Assembly (NCBI GenBank): GCA_902793405.1
Contig: CADBDH010000008.1
Location: forward strand, 82,140 to 146,139
Direction of reading: 5' to 3'
Source: an uncultured Bacteroidales bacterium
Lineage (GTDB): Bacteria; Bacteroidota; Bacteroidia; Bacteroidales; Muribaculaceae
DNA length: 64,000 nucleotides
In this document: positions 22,911-45,867 of the stretch, piece by piece
Layout: each line of letters starts with the position of its first letter
How positions within the stretch are numbered: position 1 is the stretch's first letter
Made by a program: the position numbers and the translations under genes
Notes under the pieces: model-generated
What the model was told of the DNA's origin: nothing
The model's input: the letters and a program-made list of their open reading frames with translations, nothing else
Databases searched by the model: none

Positions 22911-25799
22911 TTAGCGAACAATCTTGGTGGTCTTGGTGCTGCCATCGCTGTAGCGGGTAACAACGATGTTCACGCCGTCGAAGGGCTTGTCGCTCTTCAG
23001 ACCCTGAGCGTTGTAATAGGTGTTCACACCCTCGCCAGCAATACTGATCTCGGCTACGCCAGTCTCGATGTTGTCCCAAGGAATGAACTTCTCAACAACG
23101 TAGTACTTGAACTCGCCATCAGCCTTGGCTGCATCGGGCACCTTGTAGTAGAAGCGTACCAGGAAGCCGATGGTGGCGTTGTAGGTAGCACCGAAGGCGA
23201 GCGTGTTGGCCTCGGCATCACCAAAGGTGAACTGGGTACCGTCAACAAACTCATCAACGATGAGCAGGTCGGCGGGACGGGGCGACCACCAGTCGTTAGC
23301 CCTCTGGCCATTTTCTACAATGATCGAGTTACGGATCTGGTTGCACTGTCTCCAAACGCGAACCATGAAGGGCTCATACTCTACGCTGGCGTCTTCGGGC
23401 ATCTGAGCGGTTACGGTGATTACAGGATTGAAGATGCTGCAAAGTTCGTCATTCTCGTCCTTCCAGTTGGTGTACTTACCCTCGCTGCGGGTACCTTTAA
23501 CCGTAGCATTCAGGCCAGCAACGCCGGTCTTCATGATCTCGCTACCATAGCTGTTCAAGTTGTCAATGTGTTCGGGAGGATCGTTTTTCACACGGTCATC
23601 ACCGAAGGTCCAGATCAGAGTCTGATAGGTCATGTAGTTACCAAAATCACCAGTAACGGTCAGAGGATCCTTGAAGTTGTTGGGACCAGCATTGATAATC
23701 ATGCCTTCCATGCCCAGGGCATCCGACATCTCCATGAAGGTACCGTCGGTACGCAGCTGCATCTTGGAGAACTCGGTTACGGGCAGAGCGTTGTCACCAC
23801 GACCTACAGTGTAGTAGTAAATCGAGGGATTGGGCTGCAGGTTAACATCTACCGAACCGTTCTTCACACCAGCGAGGAGCTCGTGCTCGTCAGCCAGAAC
23901 CTCTTCCTCGGTGTAGTAGCCACCGAGCTTGGCATTTGTCTTGAAGACGGGAACCTCTACGGTGTTGGTGCCCTTGTCTCCATTGGTGAGCATCAGCACG
24001 TATGCGTAACGTACGGGATGATCATTGAGAGCAGTGCTTGCAGCGAACTGGTCAACGAACAGGATATTGCTCATGTCGATGACACCACCAGCGCCAACGC
24101 TCAGGTTGCCGCTCGTGGTCACGTTCACATTGTAGCTGGCCAGGGGCTCCTGGTTCTGATAAGTAATGTTGTAACGGGTGTTGTTGCCTGCAGTGATGGC
24201 CATCGTGGCAACGGGAACCATGGCGTCGGGAGCAGCAACGTCATAGCGATAGAGCGTGAAGTTGTTCTCACCGGCGTTAACGCGGGCGGTGGTCAGGCCG
24301 TTAGCGGCATCGTCGTTCATCACGTTCAGGAAGTTGCGGTAGTAGTTCTTCTCGGTCTCGATCTTGTAGTCGCTCTCATAGTGGTTGAGCTTCAAGGTCA
24401 GGAAGTCGTTCCAGCCGGGGATAACAACGTCAACCTGGTTAGACCATGCAACGAACATGTCATGCTCGCCATCGTTGGGCTGACCAAAGACGATGTAGCT
24501 CAAGGTGTAGCTGTGCTCATCCTGAGGCACGGGATAGGTGTAAGTGGTCTCGGTCGTCGTGATGATCTCCTCACGGGTCTCATTGCCATACTCGTCGGTA
24601 AGAACGAGGTAGAGAATGTAGTCCTGGCCTACAGTACCATGGGCCATGTCGTCGAGCGACGAGGTCCAGTCGAGAGTCACATTGTAGGTCTTCTCCTCGG
24701 CAGCGGGTTCAGCCTTGCCTTCTAGCTTGATGGTATAGATACCAACCTCGGGAGCATAATCGGGGTTGTACTGTGCATAGTCAACCTCGAAGTAGCTGTG
24801 TCTGCTACGGATCTGGTTGCCATTCAGGTCATAATAGGGATTCATCATACGACCGGCAACGTGATTGATAGCGGTCACCCATCCCCAATCATTTTTAATG
24901 GTATCATATCTCTCCCAGTACAACAGACGATAGTCGGGGATGAAGATGTTAAGGCCAGTCAGCGACCTGCTCTCGTGTCTGTTTTTACCAGCCATCGAGA
25001 AGTAGTGCTCGTTTTGGAGAACTGAAGCACAGTCGTGAACAACGGGATAAGCAGCGCCTGCTACCATCTGGAAATAGAAGTCGGTAATTTCGCTGTTCAC
25101 TGAGCCGTCGGTGGGGCTGAACTCTTCAAACATGGACTTGAAGGGTACGCGCTCGCCGTAGGTTCGATTATCGTCTTCCTCTTCATCAGTCACCCACTTG
25201 GTCTTTTGGCGAGCCTGGCCCTTGCCGAGCATGAAGAAGCGGTTAAATTCACCGCTGATGTTGAAAGTGGTACCTGCACGCATTCCTTCACCGATACGCA
25301 GACCATCGGTAAGCAACTGCACCGCGTCAATGTTGTTGCCAATGTAGGTAACCAGTGCTTCGGCATTGGGGAACTCGTAGCTACCGTAATCGTCATTGGT
25401 ACGCAGCGTAAGGTTTTCTTTAACAGAAACCATCAGCAGGGTGTAACCATCCTCGTAGGGCTTGATCACGTCATCAGCGCTGATGTTCCAGCCGCCGCCC
25501 ACGGCGCCGTAGTCAACTTCGCGCTCACGGGTGATGCCGTCTTCTTTATAGGCGCTGTAATGGGGACCCGGGATGTTGGGGTCGCAGTACACCTTCTTCA
25601 ACAGGGCAACGATCTGATAAGGATTGGTTGCCACATCGGTGATAGCATTTTCATGCGTAGCACCGCTAGCGTCGGTCCACTGATAGGTGATGGCATCGTA
25701 ATATGCCTTGGGGTGAACCGCAGGCTGAGCTTGGGCGCTCAAGACTCCAAGCGTCATCAACATGGCTGCAAAAAGCCTCAAAAAGTTTTTAGTCATCAT
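22911..25799 (-). CDS. Large exported protein of an unrecognised family with PFDG C-terminal tail
   Basis: A 962-residue exported protein with a signal peptide ending LSAQAQ. I do not recognise the family. Three loci in this window encode it. The N-terminal half has the shared blocks TNPYQIVALL, PGPHYSAY, LLTDGLRIGEG, NRFFMLGKGQARQK and PVVHDC. The middle has APEVGIYTIKL, QDEHSYTLSYIV and IPGWNDFLTLKLNHYESD. The C-terminal half has LFVDQF with NDHP, then YEPFMVRVW. It ends in the tail YYNAQG...PFDGVNIVV...TTKIVR, which resembles a T9SS type A sorting signal. It is monocistronic with a leader of about 215 nt. This copy is the shortest and lacks the inserted modules of its paralogs, so it may be close to the ancestral form. 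Confidence 0.75.
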   Translation of the reverse strand: MMTKNFLRLFAAMLMTLGVLSAQAQPAVHPKAYYDAITYQWTDASGATHENAITDVATNPYQIVALLKKVYCDPNIPGPHYSAYKEDGITREREVDYGAVGGGWNISADDVIKPYEDGYTLLMVSVKENLTLRTNDDYGSYEFPNAEALVTYIGNNIDAVQLLTDGLRIGEGMRAGTTFNISGEFNRFFMLGKGQARQKTKWVTDEEEDDNRTYGERVPFKSMFEEFSPTDGSVNSEITDFYFQMVAGAAYPVVHDCASVLQNEHYFSMAGKNRHESRSLTGLNIFIPDYRLLYWERYDTIKNDWGWVTAINHVAGRMMNPYYDLNGNQIRSRHSYFEVDYAQYNPDYAPEVGIYTIKLEGKAEPAAEEKTYNVTLDWTSSLDDMAHGTVGQDYILYLVLTDEYGNETREEIITTTETTYTYPVPQDEHSYTLSYIVFGQPNDGEHDMFVAWSNQVDVVIPGWNDFLTLKLNHYESDYKIETEKNYYRNFLNVMNDDAANGLTTARVNAGENNFTLYRYDVAAPDAMVPVATMAITAGNNTRYNITYQNQEPLASYNVNVTTSGNLSVGAGGVIDMSNILFVDQFAASTALNDHPVRYAYVLMLTNGDKGTNTVEVPVFKTNAKLGGYYTEEEVLADEHELLAGVKNGSVDVNLQPNPSIYYYTVGRGDNALPVTEFSKMQLRTDGTFMEMSDALGMEGMIINAGPNNFKDPLTVTGDFGNYMTYQTLIWTFGDDRVKNDPPEHIDNLNSYGSEIMKTGVAGLNATVKGTRSEGKYTNWKDENDELCSIFNPVITVTAQMPEDASVEYEPFMVRVWRQCNQIRNSIIVENGQRANDWWSPRPADLLIVDEFVDGTQFTFGDAEANTLAFGATYNATIGFLVRFYYKVPDAAKADGEFKYYVVEKFIPWDNIETGVAEISIAGEGVNTYYNAQGLKSDKPFDGVNIVVTRYSDGSTKTTKIVR

Positions 25800-25938
25800 G
25801 TTTTCCTAAATATTAAAAGTTAATAATAAAAAGATTGAATTCTATAGGATTATTAAATCAATCAATTGTATTGATGCATTACGTATATCGAAGAACATTA
25901 CCTTTCGTAGAACCACGTCTTGGTATTGGATTCTTATT

Positions 25939-25956
25939 CAGATACCTTTACTTATC
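25939..25956 (-). promoter_or_regulatory. Leader block shared with the 1846-residue paralog gene
   Basis: The plus-strand text GATACCTTTACTTATC in this leader matches GATACCTTTTACTTATC at 46051-46067 in the leader of the paralog. The AAGGTATCTG core also occurs in the 39735-39747 leader. Confidence 0.4.
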
Positions 25957-26021
25957 GCTTCTTTGTCGAGCGTAACGTGCTTGAATGGAAATAAAAGTCA
26001 ATATTTGTAATTTATCGTTTG

Positions 26022-26052
26022 CAAAGTTAGGAATTATTAATGACATAACCAA
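26022..26052 (-). promoter_or_regulatory. Promoter of the 962-residue gene
   Basis: On the minus strand TTG (26052-26050) and TAACTTTG (26029-26022) are 20 nt apart. The start codon is about 220 nt downstream, giving a long leader. Confidence 0.6.
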
Positions 26053-26157
26053 AGGTTTTCAGTAAAAAAAGTAAAAATTTATTAGCAAAAAATACTTGCT
26101 GGCGGAAACCTGCATACAATCGTTTTTTTTATTCGTTTTTTTGGCATCCTCGGGACC

Positions 26158-26195
26158 TAAAAAGGGGGACGCACCGTTGATGGCACGTCCCCCGA
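26158..26195 (-). terminator. Intrinsic terminator of the subtilase operon
   Basis: On the minus strand GGGGGACGTGCC and GGTGCGTCCCCC pair, followed by TTTTT. It lies about 70 nt after the stop at 26265. Confidence 0.8.
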
Positions 26196-26264
26196 CATTT
26201 TTATTGGGATTCTAGTCAAAAATTGCTGGTAAACAGGCGTTAAAGCCCGTTCGTTCAACAACTG

Positions 26265-29200
26265 TTACCTGATGACCTTGCTGGTCATGATGGAACCGTC
26301 GTTGTAGCGGGTGACAACGATGTTCACGCCATCGAACGGCTGGCTCGACTGCATGCCCAGGGTGTTGACATAGGTCACGCTCACCACCTGCCTGTCGCCA
26401 ATGAGGTCGATGATGCCTGTGGGCAGGTCAAAGTAGCCCTCGGTGCCCTCTTGTGAGAATCTGAACATGGGCGTTTCATCGTTGGCGTCGCGCAGCATGT
26501 TGGCATTACTGTTCACCAGGTGATAGTAGGCGCGGACAACAATTTCGATTCTGGCGTTGCTGACGGGAGCGCCAAAAGCGTTCTGCAACCTCACGGGCGA
26601 GGTCTCGGGATCCCAATTCTCGCCGATGACCACTTGCTGAACCGACGGAACGTCTGTCAGCACTTGTTCACCCAGCAGATAGGGGCTCTCGAGCGGCGTG
26701 GTGCCCACGATGCCGGTCGTTTCGGGATCACGGTCAAAGTTGTAGGCCCCCTCGCTGATGAGCCATACACGGAACATGTAAGGCACGCGTGTCTCACCGT
26801 CCAGGTCACTGGTGGTAATGGTGATCACTGGCGTATAGACGCAGTAGTCGGCCGTTGTGCCGTCGGGTAAGGCCTGATTCCAGTGGCCGCCCCAGCGTTT
26901 GTCACTCTTTGAACCGCCCACGTGAATGGTCATCGCGATGTCGTCGGTAGCCCTGGTGCGGCGAGCCGCGCCATAGGTGTTGTCCTGGGTGATCTTGCCA
27001 TGGGCTACGGTGACGGGCACATACATGGTCACGGTCTTGGCGTTGGGGACATTGTCCTGCACGGGCAGCCACATCTCGGTCGCGCCGCCGTCAAATGTCA
27101 CGGCATCGCCTTGGGCCGTCATGTCGTTGTTGCGGGGCATGAACGTGTTGCCCTCCTCGTGGGTGGCCATGGCTACCACGGTCCACTCGTCTTCGTTATT
27201 GGCCTTGCGCTCAACATTATAGCGGGTAACGGCTTCCTCGTCTTTGACAATTACTTTCACATAGTCGCCGCAGTTGGCTTTGAGCGCCATGTGCTCGTCA
27301 TTGGCGATGTCGTTGGCCGAGTAGATGTTGTGGGCCGCCGACTCCAGGTCGCTCTTGTAAACGGGCACCATAATCTCGTTGCTGACCAGGATGGTGTTAA
27401 CGACAATGCCGTTACCGGTCACAGTCACGGTGTAGGTCTGGTCGCCGATGGTCACGGTGAACGAGCCGTTGTGCGGTCCCTCATCGGTGGGTGAGTAGGT
27501 AACCGTCAGGTTGATACTGCCGTTGGGCAATACCTCGCCGTTGCCCGTCACGGTGAATTGGCTGGGCAGACCCGTCGTGTCGATAACAGGGGTGAAGTTC
27601 TGGTTGCCCGTGTTGGTCACGGTCACCGTCTGCGTCCTGCTCTTGCCGATGATGACATCGCTATAAGCCAACGTGTTGGGGCTAACAGTGCCGGCAGTAA
27701 CAGGATCCACTTCGACCTCCCACTCAAAGGTCACCTTGGGCAGGAACTGGCGACGAGAACCACTGCCATACCTGCCATTGTTGTTGATGCTTGTACCATA
27801 AGAGTTGAATGATGTATAACCTCCAGGATTGATGCCGTAGAAATACGTTGTGCTACTGGTTCCCGTTGATGTCACTTCAAATTCAATCACCAGGTTTCCA
27901 CCATTGTACTCATATGGTTCATCGAATGTGATGACCAGTTCCGTCCCGCCACTCACGGCAACTTGCCCGGTCTTAACCGTTGTGAGGCCAGTGATGCGGG
28001 AGTAATTGGTTTGAGGGAATGTTGTCAATGTTGTCGTGCCCATTGACACATTGAATGCTCCGCCCGAGAAGTTGATACCCGTAGAGTAGAACTTCATGGA
28101 TTTCAGCTTTTTGCCCTCAATCTCTGCCAACATGGTGGCAGGATAAATCATTTGGTTGATCTGCTTATTTCTATACTGATTTCCATAGATAGGCAAATAA
28201 TAATTGGTTGCGGTTCCATCGGCTATGGTCGCGTCGGTCTTGATGGCGCATGTGCCGTTGATGGTGATGGTCACAGGGGTGGCGCCTGGGCTGGTCAGCG
28301 TGATAGTGGCATTGTGGGTGCCCTCATTATCAGGCGAGTAGGTAATCACCAGGTTGCCACCGGTGCCCAGGCTGGTCGTGTTGATGCTGTATGTGCCGGT
28401 GTTGTCGTTGAGCGTGGCGGTGATATTGCCCGTGAGCATCAAGCCGCTAACGGCCACCGTCTGCGTGTTGGTCGTGCCAGGTTCTACCTCAAAGGTCACG
28501 CTGGCAGGATTGGCATAGATGGTGGGCACGGCATAATGGTTTAAAATGTATTCGACGCCTGCCAGCGCGTTAATCTTGCCGTTGCCAAAATGGCTGGCGT
28601 TGGGTCCGTTATCGGTCCAGTAGTCATGGATGGCAGTCTCGGCCATGATTTGCTTGATCTCGCTATGGGTGAGCTGGTGGCCACATTGTGCCGCAGCCTG
28701 CATCCACAGTGCCACGATACCGGCTGCCGCGGGTGTCGCCATCGACGTTCCCTGGGCTGCGCCGTAGGGATAGTTGGCATTGTTGATCAGCGGGGTAGAG
28801 GAGCGCCCGGTGTTCAAGTGGTTGAATGCCGAAACGATGAGCTGTCCAGGGGCCGAAATCCAGGGGATATCAATACCACCAGGACTCACACTGGCGATAG
28901 CGTAGCCCGAGAACGGGCTGATGTCGCCCACTTCGTTGCCGCTTGAGCCTCCCTCGCGGGTAATATATGAACCTATCGAGATGACCTCGGGCCACATGGA
29001 GTTATCACTCGCACTGCAGTCATCAGTGCCCTGCAGCCAGTTGTGACCGCTGGTGGTCAAAGAGTTATTGAAATAGGCAATGGTACCGCCCCACATGTCC
29101 ACGATGCAGCTGCCGCTCGTGGGGTACACCTCAACGGCGAGCGTGTAATTACTGTGATAATAATTATCTTCGTAGTCATAGCTTTTCGATTTAAGGGCGT

Positions 29201-30614
29201 TTGCGTTTAAGCGTATTTGCCTTTTGCCGGTTACGGAGTTTGAACCAACATAAATCGTTAATGTGCCTTCATAATAATCGCTCAAGCCAGATACTGTGGT
29301 TGTGACTGAGGGCGTGTAGCTCACGCTCTTGAGCACTTCGCCTGTATAGCAGTCGAGCACATAGATGGTAATACCCAGCTGGGTCGTCGAGCGTCCCCAC
29401 GCATCAAGCACATAACCGTTATAACAATATCCGCCGTCGGCATTGCTGTATCGTTCATATCGCAGAATGGAACCGACAGGGTTGTTCATGCTCGAGGTGC
29501 CGCTTACAAAGAGTCCGCCGCCCTCGCCGGGGATGGCATTGCCGGCCCTGTTCGAGGCCGCAAAGAGGCAGACCCTGTTGGGGTGGCTGTCACCAAAATT
29601 ATTGTGGATGAAGGTTTCCATGGTGCTACCCAAGTGGCCGTCGCGGGGACCGGTGGTAGTACTCCAGCTGTTGCTTACCACAAGGGGTTTCCCCTGAGCG
29701 TTGGCATAATCAATCGCCTGCTGATAGGCCGTGGCCATGTGCACGTTGTTTAGCCCATAGAAGCCTCCCAGGTACAGGTCGGCGCCAGGAGCCATACCGC
29801 CATAGGTGGCATTGGCGTGGTCGTCGGTAACAGTGATGTTAGTGCCGTTGACAATGACGCTCGAGCCGCCGGCAATCGAGCTGGTGTGCGTGCCGTGGTC
29901 CGAGTCCGAAGAGTCGGTAGTGGGCAACGAGCCGCTGCCGGTCCAGTTGGCGGTGACCGATGAGCCGTTGTAGCAATAAGCACCCTTGATGCGGGAGTTG
30001 CCGTTCTTGTCCTTGAAGGCGATGTGCTGGAAGTCGATGCCGCTGTCCATGATGGCGAGAATCACATCTTTACCGTCATATATCTGCTGCAAACCAGCCA
30101 GTTGCGCGTCTTGTGACAGCGTCAGCAAGTCGTCCACATTGCTGGCCTGGCGGGACAGGTTGGTTTCCTCTTGCATGAGTTCGCCCACCTCGACGAGGAT
30201 TACACCCTCGATAGCGGCAACCTCTTCAATCATGTCGATGGGGATGTAGGTGGTCAACAATCCGTCGCCCAGGTTGGCCAGGATGTCAACCCCCAAGTTC
30301 TCAAGGTCGGCGATGAATTCATCACCGGTCACTTGGATGAAGGACGTGATATATACCTTGCCGTTGATGGTGTCGGGCTTGGCGATGGGGCGCTTGTTGC
30401 GTGCCTCGGGCAAGGGAATCAAGTCAGGCTGTCCTGCCTTGATGGTGGGCGTGGGCTCGTCAAAGCTGATGCGGCCTGCCATCTCGTCCAGGAACATCAG
30501 GGTCGAGATAGACATTTTCTCGGCATTAGGAATGCTTTGCGCCAGCGCTGTCAGGCCGATGGCCATAAAGCCGAGCAACAGCGCGAAACGTATTTTGTTC
30601 ACTATCGTTTTCAT
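26265..30614 (-). CDS. Exported subtilisin-like (S8) serine protease with PFDG C-terminal tail
   Basis: A 1449-residue exported protease with a signal peptide ending LTALAQ. The S8 catalytic triad is visible: Asp in AIMDSGIDF (near 191), His in HGTHTSSIAGG (near 241) and Ser in GTSMATPAAAG (near 625). An insert between His and Ser contains a beta-rich region. After the protease domain come choice-of-anchor-like repeats (VTFEVEPGTTNTQTVAVSG, VTITINGTCAI and a second set near 1010-1100). The C-terminal third shares DNTYGA and VPYMFRVWL with the unrecognised large exported family, and ends PFDGVNIVVTRYNDGS...SKVIR. It starts 14 nt after the 513-residue gene and is co-transcribed with it. Likely an extracellular or surface protease, possibly maturing its exported neighbours. 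Confidence 0.88.
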   Translation of the reverse strand: MKTIVNKIRFALLLGFMAIGLTALAQSIPNAEKMSISTLMFLDEMAGRISFDEPTPTIKAGQPDLIPLPEARNKRPIAKPDTINGKVYITSFIQVTGDEFIADLENLGVDILANLGDGLLTTYIPIDMIEEVAAIEGVILVEVGELMQEETNLSRQASNVDDLLTLSQDAQLAGLQQIYDGKDVILAIMDSGIDFQHIAFKDKNGNSRIKGAYCYNGSSVTANWTGSGSLPTTDSSDSDHGTHTSSIAGGSSVIVNGTNITVTDDHANATYGGMAPGADLYLGGFYGLNNVHMATAYQQAIDYANAQGKPLVVSNSWSTTTGPRDGHLGSTMETFIHNNFGDSHPNRVCLFAASNRAGNAIPGEGGGLFVSGTSSMNNPVGSILRYERYSNADGGYCYNGYVLDAWGRSTTQLGITIYVLDCYTGEVLKSVSYTPSVTTTVSGLSDYYEGTLTIYVGSNSVTGKRQIRLNANALKSKSYDYEDNYYHSNYTLAVEVYPTSGSCIVDMWGGTIAYFNNSLTTSGHNWLQGTDDCSASDNSMWPEVISIGSYITREGGSSGNEVGDISPFSGYAIASVSPGGIDIPWISAPGQLIVSAFNHLNTGRSSTPLINNANYPYGAAQGTSMATPAAAGIVALWMQAAAQCGHQLTHSEIKQIMAETAIHDYWTDNGPNASHFGNGKINALAGVEYILNHYAVPTIYANPASVTFEVEPGTTNTQTVAVSGLMLTGNITATLNDNTGTYSINTTSLGTGGNLVITYSPDNEGTHNATITLTSPGATPVTITINGTCAIKTDATIADGTATNYYLPIYGNQYRNKQINQMIYPATMLAEIEGKKLKSMKFYSTGINFSGGAFNVSMGTTTLTTFPQTNYSRITGLTTVKTGQVAVSGGTELVITFDEPYEYNGGNLVIEFEVTSTGTSSTTYFYGINPGGYTSFNSYGTSINNNGRYGSGSRRQFLPKVTFEWEVEVDPVTAGTVSPNTLAYSDVIIGKSRTQTVTVTNTGNQNFTPVIDTTGLPSQFTVTGNGEVLPNGSINLTVTYSPTDEGPHNGSFTVTIGDQTYTVTVTGNGIVVNTILVSNEIMVPVYKSDLESAAHNIYSANDIANDEHMALKANCGDYVKVIVKDEEAVTRYNVERKANNEDEWTVVAMATHEEGNTFMPRNNDMTAQGDAVTFDGGATEMWLPVQDNVPNAKTVTMYVPVTVAHGKITQDNTYGAARRTRATDDIAMTIHVGGSKSDKRWGGHWNQALPDGTTADYCVYTPVITITTSDLDGETRVPYMFRVWLISEGAYNFDRDPETTGIVGTTPLESPYLLGEQVLTDVPSVQQVVIGENWDPETSPVRLQNAFGAPVSNARIEIVVRAYYHLVNSNANMLRDANDETPMFRFSQEGTEGYFDLPTGIIDLIGDRQVVSVTYVNTLGMQSSQPFDGVNIVVTRYNDGSIMTSKVIR

Positions 30615-30628
30615 ATCTTGATGGTGTT

Positions 30629-32170
30629 TTAGTCGTTAATTCTGATCATGCTGTTTGACTCGGTTTTGCTCTCCCCAACGGGTTCCATCATAGTCTTGCC
30701 GTCGATGCCCTTGAACTGGTCACTTTGGGACTCGGTGATATCGTGGTGGGGGGCTCCCGTGGGGGCGCCGTTGCCGCTGCTGATGACAATCTTGGTGAAG
30801 TCGATCGAGAAGGTGGTAGCGATGCCCCTGAACTCGATGGCGCCGCCAGCGGTAACGGGAATCGTCCACGTGTAGGTTTCTCCGGCACTGAAATTGTGCA
30901 ACACGCCATTGACGTACATCTCGCCGGCACCGTCGCTACCCGTGCTCGAGGTCATGGTCACATTCACGCTCTTGCCCATAAAGTAGGCAGGCATCATGTA
31001 AACGATCCTGCCGTAGGCGGTCATGTAGGCACACTGGCCGGCCGAGGGCGAATAGACGTTGGTATTGTAGAAATTCCAGTTGTTTTCGCCGACAAAGGCT
31101 GCAGCGCTCGGGGTGGCCGAGGTGGCGGCGGCAAAATCGGCGCTGGCATAGTAGTCCGTGCCCGCCGCGCTGCCGGCAGGAATCTCGATATTGGCATTGA
31201 AGTCGGCCTTGTAATTATAGTAACCCGGGTGGTCGTTGTTGGCCGTGCTCTCGGCGAAGGTGTCACTCACCTGCAACTCGTCCAGGTCAATCAGGTCATT
31301 GACCGTGTAGGTGCGGGGCTGCACGTCGAGCGGGCTCTCGTCACTCCATCCATCGTCACCCATCTGGCTGGCGGTGGGTGTCACCGTCATCAGGGGAATG
31401 TAGGAATCAGGCATAAGGCGGAAGCCGATTTGAGTGATATCGGGCGACTGATTAAGATAGTAGGAGCCATTCTGTTGGATGCCACCATAGATCGAGATGG
31501 TCTGACCGCTGCTCACATTGTAGAAAGTCTTGACAATGTATGAACCACCCGCGCTTACTTCTGAGCTGACATACCATCCCTCACCATTGAGGTTGGTGCC
31601 GAAGTAACCGCCTCGCACATTCGTGCCCACATAGACGATGAGCTGCACCGTGGCATTACTGTAGCCCTCGGGGATGGTGTAGGTGAGGCCTCCTTGAGCG
31701 GCGATATAGGCCGACCCGTTGGTCTGCCAGATCAGGCCATTGGACGTGGTTCCCCAGTTGGCGGGCAACATGCTGGCGGTGATAGTCGTCTCGCTCGAGG
31801 GAGCGTTTGTGAAACTCAGCGCACTGATGTACTTAGGCTCGGGAATGCTGTCTTTGGCCGAGAGGTTCAGGCGGACGGCAGGGCTGAATTCGCTGTCGTT
31901 CTCGCTCTGGCGGTAGATGGTGACAAGGTTGTCACCCTGGTTGAGCATGCCGGCGGTAATAGGGTAGTCCTTGTTGAGCTGATAGAAGCCCAGGACGTTC
32001 TCATACTCATTGCGCTCGGCATCGCTGACAAAGGTGCTCTTGTTGTCAACCAGCCTGAGCCCGATGCGTTGAGCCGCTGGCGAGGTTCCGGCAGGCGCTT
32101 GAGCCCACGCGCCATTCCAGCCCACTGCCAGCAGCAGGCTGCACACGATGGTAGTCATTAATTGTTTCAT
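30629..32170 (-). CDS. Exported protein of unknown function preceding the subtilase
   Basis: A 513-residue exported protein. The signal peptide contains SLLLAVGW, the same core as in two of the large exported proteins nearby. I do not recognise a named domain. A beta-rich module (YTIPEGYSNATVQLIVYVG) and a segment VSDTFAESTANNDHPGYYNY match parts of the large family (compare LFVDQFAASTALNDHP). A second beta-rich module follows (YMMPAYFMGKSVNVTM with MYVNGVLHNF). It ends without the PFDG tail or dockerin. It is first in a two-gene operon with the subtilase, 14 nt apart, so it may be a partner, substrate or inhibitor of that protease; this is inference. Confidence 0.7.
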   Translation of the reverse strand: MKQLMTTIVCSLLLAVGWNGAWAQAPAGTSPAAQRIGLRLVDNKSTFVSDAERNEYENVLGFYQLNKDYPITAGMLNQGDNLVTIYRQSENDSEFSPAVRLNLSAKDSIPEPKYISALSFTNAPSSETTITASMLPANWGTTSNGLIWQTNGSAYIAAQGGLTYTIPEGYSNATVQLIVYVGTNVRGGYFGTNLNGEGWYVSSEVSAGGSYIVKTFYNVSSGQTISIYGGIQQNGSYYLNQSPDITQIGFRLMPDSYIPLMTVTPTASQMGDDGWSDESPLDVQPRTYTVNDLIDLDELQVSDTFAESTANNDHPGYYNYKADFNANIEIPAGSAAGTDYYASADFAAATSATPSAAAFVGENNWNFYNTNVYSPSAGQCAYMTAYGRIVYMMPAYFMGKSVNVTMTSSTGSDGAGEMYVNGVLHNFSAGETYTWTIPVTAGGAIEFRGIATTFSIDFTKIVISSGNGAPTGAPHHDITESQSDQFKGIDGKTMMEPVGESKTESNSMIRIND

Positions 32171-36807: not shown

Positions 36808-39579
36808 TTACTGGTTGTTTAAGAGTTGATTAATAATGTTTACAAGCTCCGTGTTGTCGAAGTTGGGAGCATGATAATTCTCATGGTCGTCGACATAGGA
36901 AATCTTGTAACGAACCTTACCCTGCTCGTCCACAGCAAACTTGAGCTTAGCGACAGCTTCATTAACCTGTACGCCATCTACAGTGTAAGAGCGGTAGAGC
37001 ATGAACGAGTCATAACCGCCCAGGATGCTCTCTGCCGAGATACCGTTAACGATGTCATTCTCGGGCTGCAGGTAGTTGCGGTAGTAGTTCTTCTCGTCAT
37101 AAGTTCCATTTTCGGCGTTGTAGTCTTCATCGCCTACTTCCCTGATCTCGAAGTCGCTCTCGTAGTGGTGCAACTTGAGAATCATAAAGTCGTCATAGCC
37201 CGGGATAATCAACTTGACCTCGTTACTCCAAGCGATAAACTCGGGATGGTCGCTATCGACGGGAGATCCCTCGATGATGTAGGTCAGGGTGTAGCTGTGG
37301 GCCTGCTGCTGATAGAGCGTGTCAAGCTGCAGATGGGGACGGAAGTCGGTGCAGTTCTTGACGGTGTCGATGGCAACTCTCCTGCGGATGCCAGTCTCTG
37401 GGTCGGTAACTACTTGATAGATGATATATGTCTGCTCAACGGCAGAGCCAGCCATCTCGTTGAGTGATGACCTCCAATAGAGATCCACATTATAATATCT
37501 GTTGTCAGGCTCACTGTAGTCGCTCACCTTGTTGGCCTCACCCTGCAATGTGAGCAGGTAGATACCAGTCACGGGAGCATGGTGAGCTGTATCGTACTGT
37601 GCGTACCATACTGCAAGATTACTGGCTGACTTGTGGAAGGTGGAAGGATCATTTGATTTGTTGGCACTCGCTGGCTGATAGGGGTTCATATCGCGACCAT
37701 CAACAGTGTAGACTACGGGTTGACCATTTTCTTTGATGGTGTCAGTCAGCTCCCAGTACTGAAGGCGACGGTCGGGGATAAAGAAGTTCATACCCGGCAT
37801 TGCATAAGCAGTCGTACCATCGTGACCCGACATCGAGAACTCGTGCTGATTCTGGATAACCGAGAGGCAGTCATGAACTACAGGGAATACTTGACCCTTC
37901 ATCATCTTGCTGTAGAAGTCCTTTACGTCGTCACCTTTCTTACCACCAGTGGGGCTGAACTGCTCAAACATCTGACGGAACGGAACGGACTCGCCTAGCA
38001 GATGCTCTTTATAAACTTGCATATTGTGGACTATGTCGGATTTTTGGCGAGCCTGTCCCTTACCCAGGAAGAAGAAGCGGTTGTAATCGCTCTCACCAGG
38101 GCAGTTAAATACGGTACCTACGTTCTCACCTTCACCGATACGCAGACCGTCGGTCAACAGTTGGATGGACCTGACGTTCTTCGAGAAGTATTGGATAATC
38201 TCTTCCTTGGTGCTATAGAGGCTAGCATCAAATTCATCATCATCCTCCTCAAGTTGCAAGTTGTTTTTGAGCTTTACTACTAGTGCAGTATAGCCTTCCT
38301 CGTTTGGCTTGTAGGTGTCAGCTTCATACATCACAGGAGCAACACGACCCTTTGCGTCGATGGTCCAAGTATAATTTACATTAGAGTTGGTTGTGAAAGT
38401 CTTTTCTTCACCATTGACAATCAATGAGGAATTGTCGCCGTTGGCTGCTCGTGCATTTATAGTTACGGTAACTGTGTTGTATCCATCAAATAGGTAGCCG
38501 TCTAATATAATGGGGTCATTTTCATGTAATGCGAGAGCAACATAATTTCCAGAGCTGCCCCAGTTGCCCCACTGCATATAATGCATGCCAACGGGCCAAT
38601 GGCCAGTGCTGGTTTCAGCCGCCGTACCATCGTTGGCATAGCTCCAACTGAAGAGCGTCGTGCTGCCTGATGTTACGGTGATTGAGTAAATCATTGCATT
38701 TGTATTATTTCCGCCGACACTAATGTCACCTATGGCCAGGGTGCCGCCAGTGACGATGGTTCTGGTAACACGCTTGTACAGCTGAGGGTAGGCGACATTA
38801 TAGGAGGTCGTTCCATAGTAGCGGAAGCGGTTGTCGCTAGTATTATAACGCAAGTAACGTGTAGTCGTACCCTTAATCGATACAGTACCATTGGTTATCT
38901 GGATGGTGTTATACAGATTAGTGCTTACCGTTGTGCTGGTTGAGATACCGTTCGAGTTGGTGCTACGGCCCATGTAGTAGCCGCTTGCACTTTGAATGGT
39001 GTAATTGTTATTACCAACAGACGTGATGGTGAATGTTGCAGCATCGATTGTCGCATTGGAAGCAATTGTGCCGTCGTTAATGGTGACATTGATGTAGTTG
39101 CTTGTAGCATCAAGATTTGTCAGACTACCGTTCATGATGCGATTGCCACCCTCATACACGATGAGGTATTTTTCACCACTAGTCAGTTCGCTTATTGAGT
39201 TGATCTTAACATACTCCACAACGGTTGTTGTCGTCGTGGGTGGGGCAGGAAGAGCAGTGCCGGGGATTTCCCAGCCGCCGTCCATACCGCCGTAATAGAC
39301 CTCACGCTCACGATTGCCGTTCTTGTCATAAGCACTGTAGTAGGGGCCAGGGAAGCGCTTGTCCATGTAGATCCAGCGCAACAACCCATACATCTGGTAG
39401 GGGTCAGTGACCTCGTCGATGTACTTACCCGTCTGAGTGTTGCCACCGGCATCCTCCCACGTGTAAGTCCAGTCTTTAATGTCTTCGGCCTTGTACGTTG
39501 CCGATTGGGCGAAGACATTACTGGTCCAGCCCACCGCTAGCAGCAGGCCGAACAACAAAGTTGTTAGTTTCATTTTCAT
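36808..39579 (-). CDS. Large exported protein, N-terminal-half paralog without sorting tail
   Basis: A 923-residue exported protein with a signal peptide containing LLLAVGW and ending NVFAQ. It starts with the family blocks TDPYQMYGLL, PGPYYSAY and YYGGMDGGWEI. A module of about 140 residues common in Bacteroidales exported proteins is inserted (EKYLIVYEGGNRIMNGSL, SGYYMGRSTNSNGIS, RFRYYGTTSY), then a beta-rich unit (YNTVTVTINARAANGD). The family resumes with LLTDGLRIGEG, NRFFFLGKGQARQK, PVVHDC, QAHSYTLTYII and IPGYDDFMILKLHHYESD. It stops at HAPNFDNTELVNIINQLLNNQ, where the family N-terminal half ends, with no PFDG tail. The next gene, 3 nt downstream, supplies the C-terminal half. Confidence 0.75.
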   Translation of the reverse strand: MKMKLTTLLFGLLLAVGWTSNVFAQSATYKAEDIKDWTYTWEDAGGNTQTGKYIDEVTDPYQMYGLLRWIYMDKRFPGPYYSAYDKNGNREREVYYGGMDGGWEIPGTALPAPPTTTTTVVEYVKINSISELTSGEKYLIVYEGGNRIMNGSLTNLDATSNYINVTINDGTIASNATIDAATFTITSVGNNNYTIQSASGYYMGRSTNSNGISTSTTVSTNLYNTIQITNGTVSIKGTTTRYLRYNTSDNRFRYYGTTSYNVAYPQLYKRVTRTIVTGGTLAIGDISVGGNNTNAMIYSITVTSGSTTLFSWSYANDGTAAETSTGHWPVGMHYMQWGNWGSSGNYVALALHENDPIILDGYLFDGYNTVTVTINARAANGDNSSLIVNGEEKTFTTNSNVNYTWTIDAKGRVAPVMYEADTYKPNEEGYTALVVKLKNNLQLEEDDDEFDASLYSTKEEIIQYFSKNVRSIQLLTDGLRIGEGENVGTVFNCPGESDYNRFFFLGKGQARQKSDIVHNMQVYKEHLLGESVPFRQMFEQFSPTGGKKGDDVKDFYSKMMKGQVFPVVHDCLSVIQNQHEFSMSGHDGTTAYAMPGMNFFIPDRRLQYWELTDTIKENGQPVVYTVDGRDMNPYQPASANKSNDPSTFHKSASNLAVWYAQYDTAHHAPVTGIYLLTLQGEANKVSDYSEPDNRYYNVDLYWRSSLNEMAGSAVEQTYIIYQVVTDPETGIRRRVAIDTVKNCTDFRPHLQLDTLYQQQAHSYTLTYIIEGSPVDSDHPEFIAWSNEVKLIIPGYDDFMILKLHHYESDFEIREVGDEDYNAENGTYDEKNYYRNYLQPENDIVNGISAESILGGYDSFMLYRSYTVDGVQVNEAVAKLKFAVDEQGKVRYKISYVDDHENYHAPNFDNTELVNIINQLLNNQ

Positions 39580-40161: not shown

Positions 40162-40200
40162 CTCATAATCCTCATTTTCTAACTGTGGTTATGAAAAATT

Positions 40201-40326: not shown

Positions 40327-43300
40327 TTAGCGGATGACCTTGCTGATCGAGGTAGCACCATCGCTGTAGCGGGTAACAACGATGTTCACACCGTCGAACG
40401 GCTGGTCACTCTCCATACCCTGGATATTGTAGTAGGTCTGACCTACAACCTCACCATGGTAAGCAATCTCCTTCACGGCAGTAACGACACCACCTGCTGC
40501 ACTACCGTCCGACTCAGCGCCGTTACCAGAGCGGCTGCCTTCGGAACGTGTCCAAATGGTGTGGTCAGCAGCCTCGCCCTTCACGCTGAAGTAGAAGCGA
40601 ACGAAGATTCTCAGGTCTTCCTCGGGGATGTCCTTGTAGATGGGCTTGCCTTGAGCGTCATAGCCGGTGATTTGGAGCAGATCATCGAGTGCACCAAAGA
40701 TGGCATTGTTCTCATCCTTATCCCATTCACCAAGCGGATCGGCATCAGAACCACCAGTCCTATCCACTTTATTCTTGGTATAGGTGTAGGGGCCATCGGC
40801 GCCGATACGGTCAACAGTAACACCGTTCTCGGGATCATTGATGATCTCACCGTCGCTGTTGCGCTTGATGTAGCCGCTCCATACGCAGATGGGACCGTTG
40901 GTTGAGCCTTCACCAGCAGTGATGACATCATTGCCATTGTCGTCTTTCACAAACGTGTAGGGACGCAACTTGCCGTTGTCACTTTCAACGAATACGCGGA
41001 ACATGTAAGGTTCAAACTCAACCTTGGTCAAGTTCTTGGGAGGCAGATAACCGAGAGCATTGATGTTGTCAAGCATGTACAGGTTAGAGCCCACATTATT
41101 AGCATCCTTCCAGCTGGTGTTCCAACCCTCCTGGAACTCAACAATCGGTTTATACTCCTTAGCGTCGGGATCATCAGGATTAAGACCCATCTGAGCCTTA
41201 CCGACGGCAGTCTTCCAGATGGGACCACCATAGGTGTTGTCCTTACCGTCAAGCTCGAAGTAGCGACGCTGGATACCCCATGTCGATACCGAGGGAGCGT
41301 AGCTTACATACTTCTTTTCATTACCATATTCACCGATAATAGGCTCATCGGTGCTGTTGAAGTAGTGATGCTCGCCACTGTTAACCACATGGTCAAACTC
41401 AGGTGAGCCCTCCAACATCTCACGATAGGTGAAGTCTTCCTGGCGGTGGAGCTGGCTCAGGTAATCCTCACCCAGTTCGGGAGCGCGGTCCTTTGCACCC
41501 TGCAGGTAGTAGTAGTTAAGCATGTCGTTGGTGCTCGTCAGGTTATATTCCACGTCTGCAGTGAGGACGTCCATAGCCAGGCCACGGTCGGTATCGCGGT
41601 CAATCTGGCCCAGGGTGTAATAACCCATTACCTCACAGTCGGTCTTCTGGATGTTAACCCTGACTTTACCACTCTCCTTGTTGTCGCCGCTTTCGGGCTC
41701 ATACCTCAGGATATAGCCATAAGCATCGGGATGGCTATTGTCTTCCTTAATTTCCTCCTTGAGTTGGTCGGCGAACAGTACGTGCAGACGCAGCAGACCA
41801 CCTTCTACACCAGGCGTGGGAGGCACGTCACCAGAAGGATCGCCATAGACCCTAATGGATTTAATGTTCTCCCAACCGCTATTGGGCTTAATTGTTATTC
41901 CATTGGTAGCATCCACATTTGACCATTCATAGGTGTTGAATTTAATGGCAGAATTGCTTCCATCAACATTGTTGACAGATACATTCAACGAATTAGAACC
42001 AGTGTAAGAAATCTCAGTTCCGTACATGACAACTACCTTGATATTCTCATAGTTCTCAACAACGTTTGCAGGAATTGTGATATAGCCTTCAGGATTAATA
42101 TAGATGCTGTTACCGTTGTCACCCCAACCCAGAGGAGTAGCAGTAGTAGCGTCACCACCCGTTATTGTCCAACCCGTGGGCATGGTCGTTCCATCTACAT
42201 TATAATCCCAATCGTCAATCAGATTGTCATACGCAGGAGTCTCTTCGGTTTCCCAAGTCACCTCAATGGAATTGATGTAAACAGCACCACTATTTGAGCG
42301 AATACCAAAATACTGATAATCATCAGTAAAGGTAATAGTGCCGTCATTACTCAGCGAACCAATTTTGGTGCCTCGAGTTGAATTTGAATAAAGATCAGCA
42401 GCGCTTGAATAAGCTGTGTTCTTGCCATACACATCAATGGTGTTGGTGCCACCAGCGACATCAATCTTAATGCTCTTGATCTTTCCACCAGATGTGGTGG
42501 AAACAATTCCGCTGCTATTACTGTTCCTCATCTGAATACTGTTTCCATAAGTGGAATTGCTTCTTGCAGTATTTCCGGCAATGATAGCGCCACTATTAAG
42601 AGTTTTATTTGTGAAACCAGTATATTGAGTGGTCGTAGCTCCTAAGTAGGAGGATGTGAAAATGTCCGTAATCTCAATCGGCAAGTTGATGCTGGTTGCG
42701 CGTCTGGGCGCTGCATTGGGCGACAGGGGATTGTCGCCGGTGGGCCAGGTGTAGGTGGTTCCGCCAGCAGTGGCGTTGATGTCCTTAGAGGCATCGTTGA
42801 CACTGATGCGGTTCACGTTACCAGCCTCACCAAAGGCCTCAATCACTACCGTTGCGTTAGGATAGGTCTTCAGCACACCGGGGATGTACAGGTAGCCACC
42901 GCCCTCCATGTAGCAAACCTTCTCGTTGCCCGTCGAAGTGGTGTAAGGCAAGAACTTCGAACCGGGTGAAACATCCCACTTATAGGGAGTAGTGGGCAGG
43001 TTGGGATTCTGGGTGGCCACGTTGGCACTCGAGGCGTTCCAGCTGGTGATGGTGGTGTTACCGTTCTTGACGGTGATGGACTTGAGGTTCACCGTGTAAC
43101 GGTTCGGCCAGATGACGATGTCACCATTGCCCTTAACACGCACCCAACCACTGGTGGGAATATCCAGATTCTCGTGCGTGTAAGCATTGTTTACCGTATA
43201 TGTCTGATTATTCTCCTTATACGTGAGGGTGTAGTTCTCAACCTCCTGGTTCTCATAGACAACGTTGAAGTGTACCTGATCGGCAGTTGCCTGGTCGAAG

Positions 43301-45867
43301 GTGATGGTAGCCACCTTGGTCTCGGTAGTGGGGTTACCTTGAGCGTCAGGCAGGAAGCGGTACAGGTTGAACTTGTCCATCTTCTCCAGCGGAGTGGAGG
43401 GATCAGCCTCATTATAGCCGGTGATCTTGGAAATGGTCAGACCGTTGTAGATGTCCTCGTTAACCATTGCCAGGAAGTTGCGGTAGAAGTTCACACGATT
43501 GCCCTCAAACTCGGGGTCAAAGTCACTCTCGTGGTGGTCGAGCTTCAGGCCGACAAAGTCGTTCCAACCGGGGATGACCACGCTGGCACGGTTACTCGTT
43601 GCATGGAATCCGGGGCCCTCTTGAGCCACGCCATCAACCTGATATTCGAGGGTGTAGCTGTGCTCGTTCTGAGGCACTTTATAAACCACCTGGGTAATAA
43701 CGAAGGGGTTGTTGCTGTAGTCACCGGTCAGTTCGTTGCCGTCGATGTCATAGAATTTAACGCTCTCGGGCTCAAGCAGGCTGCGGTTGCCGTTCTCGTC
43801 CACGAGATAGACGGTGTAAATCTGGGGCACGGTGTGGCCCGACATCTGGTCAAGTGAGGAAACCCAAGTCAGGGTGACATCAAAGTTCAGGTTGTCAGGG
43901 TTGTGAGTGGTGCCCGTCTGAGTAGCGGTGGCATCCAGGGTGATCCTGTAGATACCCACCTTGGGGGCATGGGTCTTGTTGTAAACTGCATAATAGGCCG
44001 ACCATGCACTATACCAGGTTGCTGAGTTATAACCAGAATCATCATCGCTTACGCCAGAGAAGTAGCTGCCATGAGACCCCTCAGGTGTAGTATAATTTGT
44101 ATTGGCGCTCTCATAAGGAACATTGTCACGACCGTCAACGGTGTAGCTGTTAAATGTGTTGGGCCAGAACAGCAGGCGGTAGTCAGGGCAGAAGAAGTTC
44201 AGACCCGAGAACGGGTAGTGCTCGGTGCCGTCTTTGCCTGACAGTGAGAATTCGTGCTCGGCCTGCATGACAGAACCGCAGTCGTGCTGCACGTCATAGA
44301 CGTTACCTTCCCTCAGTTTGTCAAAGAGGTCAGTGGTTTGGCTCTCGTCACTAACAGTGGTGCTGGTGGGGCTAAACTGCTCGAACATCTCCTCAAAGGG
44401 CACATCCTCGCCGAACCAGTCATAGTAACGTATGTTTCCGTAATATGATTGATCGTTTTCGGCAGTGAATCTGGCGAAATAAACAGTGCCTCTGTTGATG
44501 AAGTCCAGGATTCGCGGTGCCTTCTTGCGCGCTTTACCCTTACCTAGGAAGAAGAACCTGTTAAGGCGGCCGTCGCAATTGAAGACGGTACCACTGGTGT
44601 GGTCAGCCTCGCTACCGATGCGCAGACCGTCGGTCAGCAGTCTCACGTATTCGATGTTGTTCTTGAAATAGGTGATCAACTGAGACTTCTGCTCAAAGTG
44701 GGTTGAGCTGGCAGGGTAGATCTCATCCTCAAGATGCCATGTGACAACATCTCCTTCTTCTTTTGCTTTGCGGTCCTTCAGAGCAACTACCACGACGGTA
44801 TAACCATCCTCGTAGGGAGGAACTACGGTGCCCTGTACAAAGGCACCCTGCTCGGGCTGCTCGGCAACGATGGGAGTCCAAGTGAAATCAGCAAAATCCA
44901 CACCTAGAGCCTTCTCTTCACCATTTACTGTTATCGTCTGGTTTGCGTCACCTTCATCACCTTCCTCATAGTCATGATTAGCATTAATGACAACGCGCAC
45001 CTGCGTTTGGCCATTCAACAGGCTATAAGGGATAGTAATGGTACCAGGGGTAGTTGTGCCGCTTGCGAGATAGCCTACATAGATTATATTGCTTTCGGTG
45101 CCAGCGTTAAGGATGCCCATGTAGTAATCACTGCTCCAACCGGGCATAGTGTAGCGATAACGGGTACCGTCAGTTGCGGTATAAGTTGTGTACTCTCCAT
45201 TATCGATAGCTGTTTGTGCATCCCAGCTGGTCAACACGTTACCATCCATGTCATAGACTGTGATGGACTTGAACGATGCATAATAACTGCTTGCAGTGAT
45301 GGTGATGTCATGGGTGATCATTGCTGCACCACCGCTACCAGCGGTGATGTCCCAACCACCATTAATGGCACCATAGTACACCTCGTCCTCGCGCTGATAG
45401 TTAGGTGTGTAGGCGCTGTAGGTGGGACCGGGGAAGTTGGGGTTACCATAGACAAAGCGCAGTAACTCGTAAATCTGATAGGCGTTGGTTGCAGGCTCGG
45501 TGGGATCCACATTGGTGTGGGTCTCACCTGTCTCGTCATCAGTCCAATTGTACTTGTACTGCTGATAGTAAGCCTTGTTCTTCACAACCGAAGAAACACC
45601 GGTAGCGCGCCTTGGAGCCATCATCGGGGTGCTCTCCTGAGTGCTCTCTTGGGTGTTCACCTGGGTGCTCATGGGCAGCGTTTGGAACGAAGCCACCTTC
45701 TTCTTTTGTGTCTTCACGATGTCCTTGACACTCTGGGTGGCAGTGACGTCGTCAAGACCCAATCGCTCGGCATAGCCGCCTTGGGGCAAGGCCTGTGCCG
45801 AAGCATGACTTGTCCAGCCTACTGCTAGCAGAAGACTGAACATCAAAGTTGTTAATTTCATTTTCAT
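40327..45867 (-). CDS. Giant exported protein of the unrecognised family with PFDG tail
   Basis: A 1846-residue exported protein. I chose the ATG at 45867 because MKMKLTTLMFSLLLAVGW gives a signal peptide almost identical to the 923-residue paralog; an upstream ATG at 45915 adds 16 unlikely residues. The family N-terminal half carries TNAYQIYELL, PGPTYSAY, LLTDGLRIG, NRFFFLGKGKARKK, VQHDCGSV, NEHSYTLEYQV and IPGWNDFVGLKLDHHESD. The C-terminal half has LFADQL with NSHP, FEPYMFRVFV and GPICVWSGYI, and ends YYNIQG...PFDGVNIVV...SKVIR. Inserted between them are beta-rich modules and a unit with KIKSIKIDVAGGTNTIDVYG, seen in other Bacteroidales exported proteins. Monocistronic with a conserved leader. 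Function unknown; size and modularity suggest a surface or extracellular binding protein. Confidence 0.75.
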   Translation of the reverse strand: MKMKLTTLMFSLLLAVGWTSHASAQALPQGGYAERLGLDDVTATQSVKDIVKTQKKKVASFQTLPMSTQVNTQESTQESTPMMAPRRATGVSSVVKNKAYYQQYKYNWTDDETGETHTNVDPTEPATNAYQIYELLRFVYGNPNFPGPTYSAYTPNYQREDEVYYGAINGGWDITAGSGGAAMITHDITITASSYYASFKSITVYDMDGNVLTSWDAQTAIDNGEYTTYTATDGTRYRYTMPGWSSDYYMGILNAGTESNIIYVGYLASGTTTPGTITIPYSLLNGQTQVRVVINANHDYEEGDEGDANQTITVNGEEKALGVDFADFTWTPIVAEQPEQGAFVQGTVVPPYEDGYTVVVVALKDRKAKEEGDVVTWHLEDEIYPASSTHFEQKSQLITYFKNNIEYVRLLTDGLRIGSEADHTSGTVFNCDGRLNRFFFLGKGKARKKAPRILDFINRGTVYFARFTAENDQSYYGNIRYYDWFGEDVPFEEMFEQFSPTSTTVSDESQTTDLFDKLREGNVYDVQHDCGSVMQAEHEFSLSGKDGTEHYPFSGLNFFCPDYRLLFWPNTFNSYTVDGRDNVPYESANTNYTTPEGSHGSYFSGVSDDDSGYNSATWYSAWSAYYAVYNKTHAPKVGIYRITLDATATQTGTTHNPDNLNFDVTLTWVSSLDQMSGHTVPQIYTVYLVDENGNRSLLEPESVKFYDIDGNELTGDYSNNPFVITQVVYKVPQNEHSYTLEYQVDGVAQEGPGFHATSNRASVVIPGWNDFVGLKLDHHESDFDPEFEGNRVNFYRNFLAMVNEDIYNGLTISKITGYNEADPSTPLEKMDKFNLYRFLPDAQGNPTTETKVATITFDQATADQVHFNVVYENQEVENYTLTYKENNQTYTVNNAYTHENLDIPTSGWVRVKGNGDIVIWPNRYTVNLKSITVKNGNTTITSWNASSANVATQNPNLPTTPYKWDVSPGSKFLPYTTSTGNEKVCYMEGGGYLYIPGVLKTYPNATVVIEAFGEAGNVNRISVNDASKDINATAGGTTYTWPTGDNPLSPNAAPRRATSINLPIEITDIFTSSYLGATTTQYTGFTNKTLNSGAIIAGNTARSNSTYGNSIQMRNSNSSGIVSTTSGGKIKSIKIDVAGGTNTIDVYGKNTAYSSAADLYSNSTRGTKIGSLSNDGTITFTDDYQYFGIRSNSGAVYINSIEVTWETEETPAYDNLIDDWDYNVDGTTMPTGWTITGGDATTATPLGWGDNGNSIYINPEGYITIPANVVENYENIKVVVMYGTEISYTGSNSLNVSVNNVDGSNSAIKFNTYEWSNVDATNGITIKPNSGWENIKSIRVYGDPSGDVPPTPGVEGGLLRLHVLFADQLKEEIKEDNSHPDAYGYILRYEPESGDNKESGKVRVNIQKTDCEVMGYYTLGQIDRDTDRGLAMDVLTADVEYNLTSTNDMLNYYYLQGAKDRAPELGEDYLSQLHRQEDFTYREMLEGSPEFDHVVNSGEHHYFNSTDEPIIGEYGNEKKYVSYAPSVSTWGIQRRYFELDGKDNTYGGPIWKTAVGKAQMGLNPDDPDAKEYKPIVEFQEGWNTSWKDANNVGSNLYMLDNINALGYLPPKNLTKVEFEPYMFRVFVESDNGKLRPYTFVKDDNGNDVITAGEGSTNGPICVWSGYIKRNSDGEIINDPENGVTVDRIGADGPYTYTKNKVDRTGGSDADPLGEWDKDENNAIFGALDDLLQITGYDAQGKPIYKDIPEEDLRIFVRFYFSVKGEAADHTIWTRSEGSRSGNGAESDGSAAGGVVTAVKEIAYHGEVVGQTYYNIQGMESDQPFDGVNIVVTRYSDGATSISKVIR

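Follow-up and report, generated by a model that had tools for sequence, protein, structure and literature searches.

The window analysed here is a 64,000-nucleotide stretch of contig CADBDH010000008.1 (assembly GCA_902793405.1) from an uncultured Bacteroidales bacterium, and it holds a cluster of six adjoining genes (P0001 to P0006) whose products are built from a shared N-terminal half, a shared C-terminal half, or parts of both (Table 1). An initial annotation had described four of the products, P0001 to P0004, as an unrecognised family of very large exported proteins with two ordered halves and one split member, and the open reading frame (ORF) list and translations placed all four where it had put them, on the minus strand. 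P0004 is 1862 residues long over 40327-45915, or 1846 when counted from the Met of signal peptide A (SP-A) at 45867. In BLASTP comparisons, the 962-residue protein aligned with the 923-residue protein (43% over 110-547, E 1e-105) and with the 1862-residue protein (38% over 111-551, E 2e-80), while the C half of the 1327-residue protein aligned with those of the 1862-residue (40%, E 7e-84) and the 962-residue (31%, E 2e-24) proteins; these values place the kinship of the four far beyond chance and bear out the two ordered halves. The motif blocks by which the halves had been recognised do recur in the order described, but their spelling varies: the 1327- and 1862-residue proteins have NSHP for NDHP, the 1862-residue protein has HHESD for HYESD, the 923-residue protein has IPGYDDF for IPGWNDF, and EPYMFRV is EPFMVRV in the 962-residue and EPYMFRI in the 1327-residue protein. 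A subtilase gene (P0005; Peptidase_S8 domain, E 6e-25 in Pfam) and a gene for 513 residues (P0006), both absent from that annotation, hold parts of the same halves, and the six genes therefore belong together. Hidden Markov models (HMMs) of the modules, grown from P0001 (from P0004 for the module INS) and searched against the ORFs of the window and of 50 fetched loci, gave a general layout of signal peptide, N1, (INS), N2, (INS), C1, C2, and a tag comprising the last ~50 residues. The INS modules are variable and occupy fixed places in the family proteins, with none in P0001 and three in P0004. In the P0003/P0002 pair, the division falls between N2 and C1, with the reported gap of 3 nt between the two genes; the second gene begins with a different signal peptide, B (SP-B).

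Table 1. Features of the gene cluster, in window coordinates.
Feature	Position	Strand	Basis
P0001, 962 aa: compact fused member; signal peptide, N1, N2, C1, C2, tag; no INS	22911..25799	-	module HMMs and AlphaFold2 model
Tag of P0001	22914..23063	-	
N-terminal domain, P0001 residues 25-347, apparently new fold	24759..25727	-	AlphaFold2, Foldseek
Invariant H255-D256-C257 of P0001	25029..25037	-	73/73 rows
P0005, 1449 aa: subtilase S8, Ig-like domains, C1 positions 31-261, tag	26265..30614	-	module HMMs, Pfam
Tag of P0005	26268..26420	-	
P0006, 513 aa: SP-A, tail of N2, C1 positions 3-38, no tag	30629..32170	-	module HMMs
P0002, 1327 aa: C-only subunit; SP-B, two INS, repeat-like stretch (by eye), C1, tag	32821..36804	-	module HMMs
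Tag of P0002	32830..32979	-	
INS module in P0002	35293..35538	-	
INS module in P0002	35851..36120	-	
Conserved junction: TAAGCG, start codon, SP-B codons	36742..36810	-	junction alignment
3' arm (GUCGCUUA) of proposed hairpin, inside SP-B	36750..36757	-	
5' arm (UAAGCGAU) of proposed start-codon hairpin; contains P0003 stop codon	36803..36810	-	
P0003, 923 aa: N-only subunit; SP-A, N1, INS, N2, no tag	36808..39579	-	module HMMs
SP-A of P0003	39505..39579	-	pattern, third-base comparison
P0004, large fused member: SP-A, N1, INS, N2, INS, INS, C1, tag	40327..45867	-	module HMMs
Tag of P0004	40330..40482	-	
INS module in P0004	41920..42183	-	
INS module in P0004	42742..42987	-	
INS module in P0004	44875..45141	-	

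Nothing in the shared N or C half of P0001 to P0004 rose over the curated Pfam or NCBIfam cut-offs, and a described family into which a profile would place the motif blocks was sought and none was found; the description of the family as unrecognised thus holds. Below the cut-offs, P0003 matched PF03440 (0.028), and P0004 matched PF08244 (0.051) and PF20009 (0.075). Among 31 relatives, Pfam added a dockerin at the C-terminal end in three and a CBM26 in one, and NF049990 matched one at 3e-6; the 70 N-domain rows gave a best E of 0.0066, from one row, against the family libraries. No sequence relative of the family was found in the PDB, where all E-values were above 0.1. A match of INS to a spore filament protein (E 0.009) was discarded as too weak.

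A search with P0001 gave some match in 37/37 drawn genomes of the genus, many of these being tag matches, and a weak match in one of 24 genomes from other families. The N2 profile (alignment A2) was found in 91 of 101 genomes of the genus, including 44 of the 48 better ones; in the order, it was found in one of 295 drawn genomes, which was the window's own, and in none of three genomes from other genera of the same family. Likewise, the N-domain profile (A7) matched only the window's own genome among 395 drawn from the phylum. These searches began with a loose first look that could miss very distant relatives, and, among the groups searched, the family is restricted to one genus of gut and rumen bacteria. 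The named relatives are metagenome-assembled genomes labelled Bacteroidales, Prevotellaceae, Porphyromonadaceae, or Muribaculaceae, some with names containing RUG, which we take to stand for rumen. Alignment A1 comprised 31 hand-picked, mostly compact rows; A2 to A5 took 28/55, 26/60, 32/65, and 38/58 of the module stretches listed; and A7, with P0001 taken from the window, omitted three of 73 N-domain rows (a near-copy of P0004 and two rows that partly repeat window proteins). A mobile origin was considered and rejected, as the P0004 region had no near-identity match in phages and P0001 no match in plasmids; of 62 pattern stretches, none was confirmed as a viral relative of the N domain. As a separate observation, the N2 of P0004 and its counterpart in G021 (L060:1296-7039) share 97% identity, the latter belonging to a gene whose frame is broken near the start, perhaps through an assembly error, while P0001 and its counterpart are 71% identical.

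The division seen in P0003/P0002 recurs throughout the family. In the window and the 50 loci, which were picked because they matched and are no census, the ORF rows comprised 37 fused, 17 N-only, and 21 C-only proteins (17 main-kind partners and four of the P0005 kind, L061 being a piece of the same gene as L050), together with 14 partial or other rows. The tag was present on 36/37 fused ORFs (the exception being L054) and on 21/21 C-only rows, and on 0/17 N-only ORFs. A simple pattern identified a signal peptide in all 17 N-only ORFs, in 20 of the 21 C-only rows (the other being cut by the locus end), and in 34 of the 37 fused ORFs. N2 and C1 distances were correlated in 15 complete split pairs (Pearson 0.84, Spearman 0.74) as well as in the 37 fused proteins (0.89), with 0/999 permutations as high in either set. 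Further, an N2 tree of 55 rows (a quick tree with some long branches) required at least four changes between the fused and split states. A different split occurs at L054:858-6797, where the first ORF runs from N1 to C2 without a tag and the second, of 358 residues, carries SP-B and a tag.

The two halves of a split member carry different signal peptides. SP-A (core LLLAVGW) is common to the N-only and most INS-bearing proteins, and the DNA pattern of its core occurs three times in the whole genome, always in the window cluster, and not at all in the control; the main-kind C-only partners share SP-B (MKKIY...LSLNAQ). At shared fourfold codons of the second ORFs, third-base identity was 0.89 in SP-B, 0.49 in C1, 0.54 in the tag, and 0.34 in the next 60 residues, as against 0.58 in SP-A and 0.45 in N2, a contrast that points to SP-A being kept mainly as protein and SP-B as DNA. 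The ATG was preceded by TAAGCG in 19/19 junctions, and the gap at SP-B junctions, with both ORFs on the same strand, is 3 nt in the window and 3 to about 15 nt in relatives. Allowing up to two mismatches, the junction pattern occurred 42 times, in 33 of the genus's 101 genomes, and never in the control. Among 30 junctions fetched, the 24 with 0-1 mismatch all lay behind a family ORF (23 N2, 1 C1), and the six with two mismatches lay behind none. With 0-1 mismatch, the pattern occurred at 34 places in 27 of the 101 genomes, and the split bearing this junction is therefore not universal. The annotated claim that the split is not a sequencing error is upheld by the 17 N-only ORFs and 17 C-only partners divided at the same boundary, by the correlated distances of the complete pairs, and by the family ORFs ahead of every near-exact junction fetched; sequencing error was rejected as the cause, since the second ORF opens with a separate signal peptide and other genomes show the split as well. 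The N-only ORF P0003 ends in an Asn-rich C-terminal tail (36808-36852) that recurs in many N-only relatives. An A-rich stretch before a start codon bears on initiation in Bacteroidota, and A-rich codons ahead of the next start are a possible explanation of these tails.

A second kind of split is represented by P0006 and P0005. In the window and at L050, L062, and L082, an ORF like P0006, with SP-A and no tag, precedes a P0005-like one. Except at L082, the C1 domain is cut near position 38, with one part on each ORF, so that the products would meet if C1 folds there; the second ORF of L082 has a tag and no C1 match. The front of the second ORF encodes a subtilase both in the window and at L050, Cleaved_Adhesin with CARDB at L062, and a region with only Ig-like matches at L082; a constant tagless partner is therefore paired with different tagged cargo.

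The N-terminal domain was modelled with AlphaFold2 from 70 rows (P0001 residues 25-347), giving a predicted local distance difference test score (pLDDT) of 95.0 and a predicted template modelling score (pTM) of 0.93. Foldseek compared this model with 350,542 PDB chains and returned 74 matches at E ≤ 10 and none at E ≤ 0.001, the best having an E of 2.0 and a probability of 0.02; the term new fold denotes here the lack of a PDB match by this one program. Nine residues, namely Lys193, Glu225, Pro229, His255, Asp256, Cys257, His265, Phe267, and Arg291, are fixed in 73/73 aligned rows, which include two partial repeats of window proteins and reach identities to P0001 as low as 27%, and position 289 is Asp in 71 rows and Glu in two. 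The invariant residues presumably meet in space. Because the PDB holds no match and nine residues are fixed in every row, we propose that the N domain probably represents a new fold and bears a site for a ligand, a metal, or catalysis.

The model of whole P0001 (pLDDT 84.2, pTM 0.76) is nearly all beta after residue ~350. Among the 50 matches listed for each Foldseek search of a whole model, there were only Ig/Fn3-like chains, with a TM-score by query of at most 0.13, and they were not taken as homology. The tag at the end of the C half occurs at 34 places of the window's own genome (E ≤ 0.01), on ORFs of 54 to 2024 residues; many of these places are the C terminus of ORFs that otherwise differ. 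A profile of the tag aligned with 20 signals of the type IX secretion system (T9SS) from the genus (hhalign probability 87%, E 3.9e-6), which gives moderate support to a relation between the tag and T9SS signals. In the draw from the order, tag matches at E ≤ 1e-6 were found in 22 of 295 genomes, the window's own included, with one to four in each of the other 21. Two T9SS parts, the translocon protein SprA and the T9SS sortase (PorU-like), were sought in six genomes, and both were over the cut-off in 6/6; canonical T9SS signals were likewise found in 6/6. Together, the signal peptides found by pattern and the apparent kinship of the tag agree with the annotated description of the proteins as exported. 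Three C-half proteins without a tag end in a type I dockerin (L080:6142-7800 in the window's own genome, L081:11200-12891, and L085:6365-8377), and the stalk can therefore bear either kind of C-terminal end.

At the junction of the split genes, the arms TAAGCGAT and GTCGCTTA (the latter at the end of SP-B) could form eight complementary pairs, one of them G-U, in 19/19 aligned rows, and the 3' arm is kept in 32/32 distinct junctions, the 5' arm having been part of their selection. In 31/31 rows, the Leu is encoded by CTT and the Ser by TCG, which account for 12.6% of Leu and 14.5% of Ser, respectively, in second-ORF bodies, and sliding the pairings lowered complementarity from 99% to 19-52%, in a comparison where a consensus-derived structure favours itself. 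RNAalifold predicted two stems from the 19 rows, with one pair of stem 2 changed on both sides in six rows; the covariation score and the double-change cells were higher than in shuffles (0/500 reached them), and stem 1 was part of the minimum-energy fold in 8 of the 10 junctions folded out of 19. We regard these arms as a candidate hairpin around the start codon of the second ORF.

We therefore put forward, at even chances, the reading that this is a genus-restricted surface family exported by the T9SS, in which the split halves are translationally coupled subunits and the tagless one is carried by the tagged one. Fused members would leave by the T9SS and be shown on the cell surface, with (i) an N half formed by a ~320-residue domain, its constant K/E/H-D-C/H/R set, and further beta domains, and (ii) a C half forming a beta stalk that ends in a short T9SS-type tag. 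In split members, the first ORF would supply a subunit with SP-A and no tag, and the second a subunit with SP-B and a tag. The hairpin would hide the second start codon until the ribosome completes the first ORF, coupling the synthesis of both; the subunits would reach the periplasm by Sec, associate there, and exit together through the wide T9SS channel. The fuller version, namely a new fold with an enzymatic or metal site, a first case of T9SS "hitchhiker" export through hairpin-controlled coupling, and repeated fission and fusion at one boundary, seems to us unlikely in its entirety.

Several results weigh against these proposals, and other explanations draw on them. TIGR04183 (NCBIfam) matched 0/32 tag rows at E ≤ 1, and its nine places in G000 include none in the window cluster; the tag could accordingly be an unrelated C-terminal module and no T9SS signal, the more so as the profile-profile probability is below 95%. 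We consider this quite improbable in view of the many otherwise different ORFs that the tag ends in its own genome, an intermediate sequence recognised by eye at locus L158, and the Cleaved_Adhesin domain of the tagged relative L062, a domain that occurs in T9SS cargo. The N domain, for its part, could be purely structural or an adhesin whose invariant residues hold the fold and form no site, since the remaining protein resembles Ig/Fn3 stalks and no enzyme relative was found by PDB sequence and fold searches; yet nine columns, seven of them K, E, H, D, C, H, and R, stay fixed at such low identities, and we see this explanation as a real, if somewhat doubtful, possibility. As for export, the parts covered of the literature on T9SS piggyback transport, cargo lacking the C-terminal domain (CTD), and coupling gave no earlier case in which a partner without a tag leaves by the T9SS. 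The tagless N subunit might instead stay in the periplasm as a chaperone-like or sensing half, with the N domain outside only in fused members. The missing tag of all N-only ORFs fits this, as does P0003, for which NCBIfam gave no match at E ≤ 1, T9SS signals included. On the other hand, nearly every fused protein bearing the N domain has a tag, so that the usual place of this domain is with the tag, and the repeated changes on the N2 tree fit an exchangeable state; a periplasmic subunit thus appears unlikely.

The junction raises a further alternative, in which it is kept by recombination spread or by plain coding or initiation constraint, no hairpin forms, and the halves are simply neighbours. 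Stem 1 is invariant and thus shows no covariation; the count of double-change pairs was no better than in shuffles (459/500), nor were the pair types (492/500), and hairpin stability likewise did not exceed shuffles (z -1.0 to +1.2). Moreover, third-base conservation is also 0.90 in SP-B outside stem 1, the junction difference tracks N2 distance weakly (r 0.24, 20/999 permutations as high), and linkage alone can give correlated distances and explains part of the N2-C1 correlation. The complementarity in all aligned rows, the two fixed codons, and the drop on sliding nevertheless speak for a hairpin. In addition, two junctions within one genome differed by 25 and 27% (two genomes), whereas 104 distant pairs differed by 19% on average; junctions are therefore not homogenised within a genome, and within-genome gene conversion is disfavoured, from two cases. 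On balance, we judge a junction kept without a hairpin to be possible, though rather doubtful.

The proposed coupled, co-exported subunits were compared with known systems. Modular surface proteins with T9SS signals are already known; what is new is the family with its N domain, signal peptides specific to each half, and the division into a tagless and a tagged protein. Type A CTD cargo of the T9SS (TIGR04183, Por_Secre_tail) is alike in its Sec-type signal peptide, its C-terminal beta tag found on many different proteins, and the T9SS genes in the genome, whereas the tag here has ~50 residues and lies beyond the reach of TIGR04183, one split subunit has no tag, and three C-half proteins end in dockerins. 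Ig/Fn3-stalk proteins share the chain of beta-sandwich domains, but not the fold match, given the low TM-scores among the matches listed and an N domain that on its own is without a match. Piggyback transport of signal-less partners is described for peroxisomes, and for Tat as a title cited (PMC9251779); there, too, one partner has the signal and the other would ride folded, whereas here such transport is proposed for the T9SS, which exports through a barrel of 36 strands and very large size (PMC10202324). A recent review presents two models of translational coupling, one of them based on RNA unfolding (PMC12548453); this model is similar in that the start of gene 2 would lie in a stem that ribosomes ending gene 1 would open, over gaps like those of 3 to about 15 nt seen here; it differs in that our stem is predicted only, and this ordinary mechanism is here tied to a split surface protein. 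Finally, type B T9SS substrates with dedicated shuttles (PMC12618676) offer a parallel of distinct signal classes with distinct partners, to which the 2-4 T9SS-sortase-like genes over the cut-off in the six tested genomes may correspond; the tag was compared here solely with the genus signals found by TIGR04183.

If the proposed reading is true, the T9SS moves pre-assembled complexes as well as single tagged chains, and the prediction of its cargo from genomes would change. The N domain would represent an additional fold, perhaps also an additional activity, in most examined species of one gut/rumen genus, not found elsewhere, and the family would offer a natural fused/split series of one protein for the study of subunit assembly.

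Other observations concern export and the surroundings of the cluster. Three T9SS-sortase-like (PorU-like) genes lie close together outside the window (G000:C3:83919-95845), and in each of the five other tested genomes, the 2-4 such genes over the cut-off lie on one contig; these multiple genes could serve different signal classes. Within the window, a UGSC-family protein (53352-55451) has the same C-terminal tag, and type I dockerin domains occur on three proteins (20081-22618, 52335-53339, and 59492-61648), one of which has an FGE-sulfatase domain and another BspA-type leucine-rich repeats. An ARAGORN call of tRNA-His on the plus strand (28284-28373), within the subtilase gene, is probably spurious. 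The stretch 22542-22764, comprising the start of the dockerin protein P0007 and upstream non-coding DNA, is 86-92% identical in eleven loci, repeats left out, in which no match of at least 85% covers P0001; it is a candidate conserved leader or promoter.

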